Shown here piece after piece: positions 14,911 through 16,185 of a stretch of DNA of 39,329 bases. This DNA is from Lentisphaerota bacterium (GTDB lineage Bacteria; Verrucomicrobiota; Kiritimatiellia; PWTM01). Below the pieces are notes generated by a model. It saw only the letters and a program-made list of their open reading frames with translations, did not search any database and was not told the origin of the DNA. Position numbers and translations under genes: made by a program. Positions within the stretch are counted from its first letter, which is position 1. The number at the start of each line of letters is the position of its first letter. The stretch lies in NCBI GenBank assembly GCA_016873715.1, contig VGWF01000027.1:1-39329 (forward strand). The letters run 5' to 3'.

Positions 14911-15079
14911 TTTCCGGCCCCACCGGGACAAGCCCGGTGGGAGCCCGGAACACTCCCGGACGCGCCCGGTGGGAGCCTGAGATGCTCCACACTCGGCCGC
15001 TCCCACCGGGCTTGTCCTCGTGGGAGCCAGGGATGTTGTACACTCGGCCGCTCCCACCGGGCTTGTCCCGGTGGGGCGG
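14911..15079. repeat. REP/BIME-like palindrome module, left of the RAYT gene
   Basis: The core unit is a 9-base palindrome with a 5-base loop: CCCACCGGG (14919-14927), ACAAG, CCCGGTGGG (14933-14941). It is followed by inverted and direct part-copies. A 29-base segment starting ACACTCGGCCGCTCCCACC occurs at 14989-15017 and again at 15040-15068. The module ends with an inverted copy at 15049-15079. The first 41 bases (14911-14951) and the last 31 bases are repeated exactly on the right side of the transposase gene. Confidence 0.9.
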
Positions 15080-15099
15080 GAAACGGAAGGAGGCGACGC

Positions 15100-15879
15100 A
15101 TGCGGTACACGGGCGTGAACGTGCACATCCCGCACAAGCTCCTCCTCGACTGGACCGGCTGGCTCTCCGATGGCGTCGCATTCCCTGCCGCCACGGCCGC
15201 CGCCATCGAATCCACCGCGCCGGTCTGGGCCGGCGACGGCCTCACCCTCGACACCTTCCGCATCGCCGGCGACCTCGTGCAGATCCTCTTCGCAACGACA
15301 CCCGACGTGAGCCCGACCCTCCTGGCCGGCCGCGCCAAGGGCCGCCTTCAGCACGCGCTCCGCGCCGCGGGTGCGCCGGTCGCGTTCAGCCGCAAGGTGT
15401 CCGTCCGCTCCGTCGGCGAGAACACCCGCGCCGATGTGGAGGGCTACCTCGCGCGACAGGTGGAGCGCGGCGAGTTCGCCGACCCGCGCTTCCGCGGGCG
15501 GATGGCGCGCTACACGGTCGTCCGCGACGGCGTCGACCTCGCAGCGCCGTCGGCGGGCGGACACGGCCGCTACTGGTACAACCTGCACGTGGTCCTCGTC
15601 ACCGCCGACCGGTTCCGATTCGGGGCGGAGGACATCCTCGCCGGCGTGCGCGACGCGGCCCTCGCGGCGGCGGACCGGGGCGGGCATGCCCTCAAGTCGG
15701 TCGCGGTGATGCCGGACCACGTGCACCTGGCGCTGCGAGGCCATATCGAGCGATCCCCGCGGGAGATCGGGGTGGGGTTTCAGAACGCCCTGGCGGAGGC
15801 GGTCGGCTGTCGCGCGTGGCAGGACGGGTTCTACGCGGGCACGTTCAGCGAATACGACGTCAGCGCCATCCGCCCTTGA
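15100..15879 (+). CDS. REP-associated tyrosine transposase (RAYT, IS200/Y1 HUH family), unusual two-half architecture
   Basis: 259 residues, start supported by AAGGAGG 6 bases upstream. The C-terminal half has the HUH metal-binding motif, H207-V-H209 in VMPDHVHLAL, followed by SPREIGVGFQNALAEAVG and W240-QDGFYAGTFSEYDVSAI. It stops exactly where the catalytic Tyr helix should begin. The N-terminal half (about 53-122) instead looks like the other end of a Y1 domain. Its HUH strand is degenerate (GDLVQILF), but a K-GR helix, FSRKVSVRSVG, and a Tyr helix with the YxxxQ pattern (Y116, Q120) follow. So one chain seems to hold one HUH and one Tyr from two fused copies. RAYTs cut single-stranded REP hairpins; the flanking palindromes are the obvious substrate. 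Confidence 0.85.
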   Translation: MRYTGVNVHIPHKLLLDWTGWLSDGVAFPAATAAAIESTAPVWAGDGLTLDTFRIAGDLVQILFATTPDVSPTLLAGRAKGRLQHALRAAGAPVAFSRKVSVRSVGENTRADVEGYLARQVERGEFADPRFRGRMARYTVVRDGVDLAAPSAGGHGRYWYNLHVVLVTADRFRFGAEDILAGVRDAALAAADRGGHALKSVAVMPDHVHLALRGHIERSPREIGVGFQNALAEAVGCRAWQDGFYAGTFSEYDVSAIRP

Positions 15880-16031
15880 TTTCCGGCCCCACCGGGACAA
15901 GCCCGGTGGGAGCCCGGAACGGGCTCTCCCGCCCCACTACCAGGGCACGCCCGGTGGGAGCCTGACTACCGGCGCACGCCCGGTGGGAGCCAAGTGCGGG
16001 CGCTCCCACCGGGCTTGTCCCGGTGGGGCGG
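15880..16031. repeat. REP/BIME-like palindrome module, right of the RAYT gene
   Basis: It begins one base after the transposase stop codon. Bases 15880-15920 are identical to 14911-14951, and 16001-16031 are identical to 15049-15079 (31 bases starting CGCTCCCACCGGG). The interior has further half-units GCCCGGTGGGAGCC. The two modules therefore frame the gene as direct repeats, and each module is itself an inverted pair. Confidence 0.9.
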
Positions 16032-16185
16032 AAAACGGATGAAGACGGACGCGCGCGCGGCACAGGATCGCCGCCGCGAACCACGAAGCGACGGCCTTGT
16101 CGCTCGCGAACCCGGTTCCGGTGCCGCGCTCGCCGCCGACGCGAAGGGCACATCGAGATCAGGTGCCCCGGGAAGCGGCGTGCGC
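16032..16185. other. Intergenic sequence between REP module and hydrolase gene
   Basis: No gene recognised. One small hairpin is present: AGCGAC (16087-16092), 6-base loop, GTCGCT (16099-16104), with no T tract. Several frames are open only because of high GC. Confidence 0.4.

Follow-up and report, generated by a model that had tools for sequence, protein, structure and literature searches.

Described Y1 transposases and the two-domain gene

The closest described relatives of the gene reported here are the TnpA proteins of IS608 and ISDra2 (IS200/IS605; TnpA-Y1 class 1), which are single-domain homodimers with two active sites. In IS608 TnpA, one subunit provides the HUH histidines that bind the metal, and its partner provides Gln131 as a further ligand and Tyr127 as the nucleophile (PMC5934647); this Tyr and Gln both lie on helix D and complete the HUH site of the partner subunit (PMC5934647, PMC6006769). 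The RAYT or TnpA-REP proteins (TnpA-Y1 class 2), as in E. coli and Pseudomonas, contain a single Y1 domain and a YxxxNP helix whose Asn serves as third metal ligand; their REPs have a GT[AG]G foot, and the E. coli protein appears to be monomeric (PMC6006769). The survey of the superfamily by Quentin et al. 2018 describes its class 3, from Planctomycetes and Acidobacteria, as single-domain proteins of ~178 aa with a Gln five residues past the Tyr (YV[VI]xEQ) and a CnGA foot (PMC6006769). A survey of REPs themselves lists GTAG and CGTC repeats, the CGTC ones without a known transposase (PMC3733652).

Here we describe a Y1 transposase of two domains, with the active-site residues split between them and with its own REP class, which is neither a RAYT nor an IS200/IS605 element. 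Its gene lies at 15100..15879 (+ strand) of the window, the whole 39,329-nucleotide stretch of Lentisphaerota DNA that was analysed; it encodes 259 aa and is supported by its open reading frame, Pfam, AlphaFold2, conservation and dN/dS. The neighbours are a GHL10 glycosidase gene and an open reading frame without a Pfam match. The gene is single copy, with one match in its own genome and the same in most carriers.

The Pfam Y1_Tnp model (PF01797) matches the protein at 44 bits (cut-off 23) in two stretches, with a match at residues 160-252 (E 2.9e-11). When compared with PDB sequences by phmmer, residues 156-216 pair with ISDra2 TnpA 15-76 and residues 100-121 with its Tyr helix, 117-137, an order reversed relative to one Y1 site, with the Tyr helix first and the HUH part second. 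Relatives likewise have single frames that the Pfam model matches twice, its C-terminal part and then its N-terminal part (for example G316 C1:698349-698924 and G048 C94:20255-20884). Against a profile of IS200-type TnpA built from a small set of single-domain sequences, hhalign recovers both the N-half (residues 10-125; 15127..15474, +; P=1.8e-12), in which the HUH strand is degenerate and the KGR and Tyr helices are intact, and the C-half (residues 155-259; 15562..15876, +; P=1.5e-21), in which the HUH motif is intact and the Tyr helix absent. The profiles of the two halves can also be aligned to one another, with P=1.4e-4 for main-family sequences alone and 1.6e-6 when a divergent subfamily is included.

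An AlphaFold2 model based on the protein and seven homologues (pLDDT 85.4, pTM 0.84) predicts the beta-alpha-beta-beta-alpha-beta fold twice, as E15-22, H32-45, E48-56, E59-66, H72-89, E100-105 and H110-122 in the N-half and E161-168, H177-194, E197-203, E207-213, H220-235 and E240-249 in the C-half, with the final (Tyr) helix in the N-half only and a linker of ~35 residues from it to the C-half. The top Foldseek matches in the PDB are ISDra2 TnpA, S. tokodaii TnpA and IS200 TnpA (E ~2e-5 to 8e-5), with IS608 TnpA also among the best and E. coli TnpA-REP (4ER8) at rank 29. Modelled alone the N-half is predicted with lower confidence (pLDDT 72.5), and its 28 Foldseek matches at E<=0.001 are all IS200/IS605 TnpA. 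The two predicted Y1 folds bear out the fused pseudo-dimer of the original prediction; the one-domain alternative, a single Y1 fold after simple domain truncation, is ruled out by AlphaFold2, Foldseek and profile alignment.

Catalytic residues and the homologue family

The HUH and YxxxQ motifs are both present, in separate halves of one chain. Residues Y116 to Q120 (YLARQ; 15445..15459, +; Y116 codon 15445-15447) align to the ISDra2 Tyr helix and hold the predicted nucleophile and third metal ligand, while the sole intact HUH motif is H207-V208-H209 (15718..15726, +); in register with TnpA, Y116 and Q120 fall on the catalytic Tyr and Gln, and H207-V-H209 on HVH. The YxxxQ motif occurs in 37/37 full-length homologues, among which Y116, Q120, D206, H207, H209, H163, R171, K80 and G81 are invariant.

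The positions that would make up a second site show no such constraint. Profile register sets D58-L59-V60-Q61 of the N-half opposite D-H-V-H of the C-half, with Q61 at the second His, and so places the lost N-half HUH motif at L59-V60-Q61 (15274..15282, +), where no His is conserved: position 59, that of the first His, has 14 residue types among the 37 homologues, and position 61 has Gln in 29, Leu in four, Met in two, Lys or Ile in the others and His in none. At the other end of the protein, profile alignment puts the chain end about one residue short of the C-half Tyr position, which holds Tyr in 0/33 main-family members and I, L, A or the chain end instead; some relatives extend a few residues past the C-half end without a Tyr (e.g., DVIRRIVGKS).

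These results agree closely with the original prediction. The sequence does contain the 259-residue frame at 15100-15879 with Y116, Q120, H207 and H209 where they had been placed, and the proposed N-half with a Tyr helix and a broken HUH strand is upheld by the profile register and by the lack of a conserved His at 59 and 61. The claim that the C-half keeps its HUH motif and stops where its Tyr helix is due is exact for the 259-aa protein, some relatives being those few residues longer. Homologues with the same order of halves conserve Y116, H207 and H209 in all 37 cases but do not conserve the alternative positions, so that the idea of one chain with exactly one complete in-trans set of residues also stands, with its intramolecular assembly inferred. 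Read from sequence, and in the absence of Tyr-HUH distance data, this pattern implies that Tyr and HUH would be combined in trans between the two domains.

Of the 346 genomes of the class, most of them draft or metagenome assemblies, 33 yielded homologues in a single-sequence search, and a profile search added members from further classes of the phylum (L064, L066, L067, L070, L071 and L076); others came from Chthoniobacter-like genomes and one Planctomycetaceae MAG. Copies on plasmids and phages were searched for and none was found. Across eleven pairs dN/dS was 0.09-0.24, indicating purifying selection. In one relative (L008 1501-2007; G051:C48:9510-10007), which is probably a decayed copy, an in-frame deletion has left a frame of 187 aa with H207-V-H209 immediately after Y116-L117 (YLHVHVAVRG).

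Four members (L009, L012, L034 and L076; ~280-290 aa) form a divergent subfamily B, whose C-half retains a Tyr helix of its own in altered form (YxxxW, Trp for Gln at +4), giving two tyrosines and one HUH; its nucleophile could differ from that of the main family. When the domains were placed in a tree, N-halves from the main family and subfamily B grouped together (support 99/94), as did their C-halves (97/98). On the basis of this tree the two-half layout probably arose once, before the main family and subfamily B diverged. AU tests rejected neither a single clade of N- and C-halves (p 0.44) nor a grouping of N-halves with IS200 TnpA (p 0.41), and leave unresolved whether the layout originated by duplication or by fusion of two different TnpA genes.

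REP hairpins and the place of the gene among known systems

The gene is flanked by two inverted REP pairs, one per side. Upstream, a first arm with a TTT foot and an ACAAG loop (14911..14950, +) faces an inverted arm (15044..15083, -), and an imperfect copy with 2 mismatches lies within the pair (15002..15024, -). Downstream, the TTT foot of the first arm (15880..15919, +) directly follows the stop codon, and the inverted arm is at 15996..16035 (-). The genome has 35-38 REP copies and no match to a reversed control pattern. Thirty aligned genome copies have a sharp 5' edge at TTT (T at 27/30, 23/30 and 30/30) without GTAG, a paired outer stem that varies among copies, an inner stem of 8-9 bp and an RCAAG loop; 23 of the 30 have an unpaired (bulged) A on the 3' side, and homology fades outside the REP. 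The DNA folding z is about -5. We also observed arrays in which REPs are spaced by 72 or about 54 bp, and copies of the 3' half only (CCCGGTGGGAGCC), at G000:C181:4241-4703, C100:15574-15767 and window positions 14965, 15950 and 15979.

Hairpins with five-base loops near the homologues most often carry CAAG, and by a wide margin (82, against 10 for the next unrelated loop), and the stems vary from species to species; their covariation is partly a selection effect, as only hairpins with at least 8 pairs were chosen. RCAAG-loop hairpins occur near 28/36 main-family genes (31/36 at 6 bp) and near 0/16 single-domain Y1 control genes, including two of the gene's own genome. Within the class, REP-model matches were found in 26 of 33 gene carriers versus 39 of 313 other genomes (Fisher p=1.8e-15); the model was trained on the flanks of two-domain genes and the association is therefore inflated, so we regard it as supportive and not independent. 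Where a REP lies downstream, its loop starts 12-18 bases past the stop codon at 8 of 18 loci.

RCAAG hairpins of at least 6 bp are absent from a distant clade (L007, L031 and L032); in the flanks of L007 and L032 a hairpin of another kind, for example TTCGCCCCGCAAGCGGGACTCCG, is repeated many times. In four other loci (L014, L015, L016 and L018) REP hairpins can be read within an apparent N-terminal extension of the transposase frame, the start sites being uncertain. Rfam contained no relevant family for RCAAG-loop REPs, and in open-access papers, the only ones covered, we found no description of a REP class with this loop and a TTT foot.

This combination sets the gene apart from each of the described systems compared here. 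With IS608 and ISDra2 TnpA, its best sequence and fold matches, it shares the Y1/HUH fold, the YxxxQ helix, the HUH strand and, by inference, a trans site in which Tyr and HUH come from different domains; unlike those homodimers, the 259-aa chain has both domains and one site, and unlike their tnpA genes it is single copy, outside any insertion sequence and flanked by REPs. The curated IS200/IS605 model NF033573 scores 41.5 bits, below its cut-off of 55, and this score, the copy number and the neighbours rule out an IS200/IS605 element, that is, a mobile multicopy insertion sequence, often with tnpB.

The label "RAYT" in the original prediction holds only for the genomic setting, which is that of a REPtron and RAYT-like: a single-copy, non-IS gene enclosed by inverted REP pairs, numerous REPs elsewhere in the genome, a bulged REP hairpin and, as inferred for this protein, one active site per functional unit. 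It does not fit the protein, which has YxxxQ, a fold closer to IS200/IS605 TnpA and only 13.9 bits with the NCBIfam RAYT model NF047646 (cut-off 80). This score, the Y-motif, the REP foot and the number of domains rule out a canonical RAYT, from which the gene differs in having two Y1 domains, YxxxQ, a TTT foot and an RCAAG loop. The single-domain proteins of class 3 resemble it in a Y-motif ending in Q, atypical hairpins and an origin in related phyla. None of the 12 subclasses in the available portion of the superfamily survey has a two-domain split-site layout, and Verrucomicrobia are not mentioned there (PMC6006769); a description in a subscription journal is not excluded.

Proposed mechanism, competing readings and significance

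The IS608 residue set (Y116, Q120, H207 and H209) is kept exactly once, and from this we infer an intramolecular pseudo-dimer in the trans state. In our judgement the single chain is probably a pseudo-dimer whose only site is composite and locked in trans, as arranged in IS608/ISDra2 TnpA, both the intramolecular site and REP cleavage being inferences. The last helix of the N-half would contribute Y116 as nucleophile and Q120 as third metal ligand, the C-half would contribute the metal-binding histidines H207 and H209, and the halves together would form a single site fixed in trans. In the IS608 model, the cis state is required for strand exchange. Here that state would be unavailable, because the N-half lacks an HUH motif and the C-half a Tyr; with one site and no cis alternative, two ends would not be cut at once and there would be no IS608-type reset from trans to cis. 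The enzyme most likely binds single-stranded RCAAG-loop REP hairpins, both those flanking the gene and those scattered in the genome, and would then cleave beside the foot by forming a 5'-phosphotyrosine bond, after which the strand is rejoined and REPs are spread or edited. It would act sequentially, one REP per cut, or as two paired chains. No activity data support these steps; cleavage of REPs is inferred from the gene-REP linkage and from known RAYTs (PMC8266576).

The same residues could instead meet between chains, Y116 of one with H207 and H209 of another, in a four-domain dimer with two active sites. IS608 TnpA does form its site across chains, and the ~35 residues that link the Tyr helix to the C-half could permit such a swap, yet the domains of a single chain are predicted to pack in a well-defined way (pTM 0.84), with no need of a second one; without direct evidence on either side, we regard the inter-chain site as possible but unlikely. 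That the REPs are moved by another Y1 transposase, the two-domain gene merely lying among them, also has to be considered, as the genome encodes two canonical single-domain Y1 proteins, L036 and L037 (G000:C147:7128 and C8:27489), of the YVRRNP and YIERNP types. Neither has an RCAAG hairpin in its 3-kb neighbourhood, however, nor do the 14 other single-domain Y1 genes have any nearby, and REPs flank two-domain genes in genome after genome, which makes this explanation improbable.

Loss of half of each duplicated site, together with the lack of activity data, would also suit a catalytically dead REP-binding or regulatory protein whose conserved residues are structural leftovers. We think this very improbable, since without activity any of the complementary Y, Q, H and H residues should vary, whereas all are invariant in 37/37 homologues and the other copies are free. 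We give almost no credence to a layout without function, produced by a decaying tandem duplication or by a sequencing or assembly fusion: the assemblies are draft or metagenomic and the decayed relative with an in-frame deletion (G051) exists, but the same layout recurs in dozens of independent genomes from several classes under a dN/dS of 0.09-0.24. Conservation and dN/dS rule out an assembly fusion or pseudogene.

The single-chain, one-site pseudo-dimer thus remains our preferred reading. Whether it represents a separate lineage of REP-associated transposases is a proposition to which we assign even chances; in such a lineage two IS200-type TnpA domains would have been joined and lost half-sites reciprocally, remaining permanently in trans; REPs would be cleaved and joined in a cycle with one site, in contrast to the two-site, trans-to-cis cycle of IS608, and REPs would be recognised by the RCAAG loop and not by a GTAG foot. 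By analogy with E. coli TnpA-REP, which appears to be a monomer (PMC6006769), coupling to REPs may commonly lead to a single site per unit.

The trans/cis switching of the Tyr helix in IS608-type transposases and the one-site action of RAYTs are hard to test because the subunits of a homodimer are identical. The two-domain family may be viewed as a natural experiment, in which each catalytic residue occurs once and in a known half, so that single mutations probe trans assembly directly. It adds a REP class defined by its loop and spread through Verrucomicrobiota, and suggests that coupling to REPs may have evolved repeatedly, as may the reduction to a single active site.
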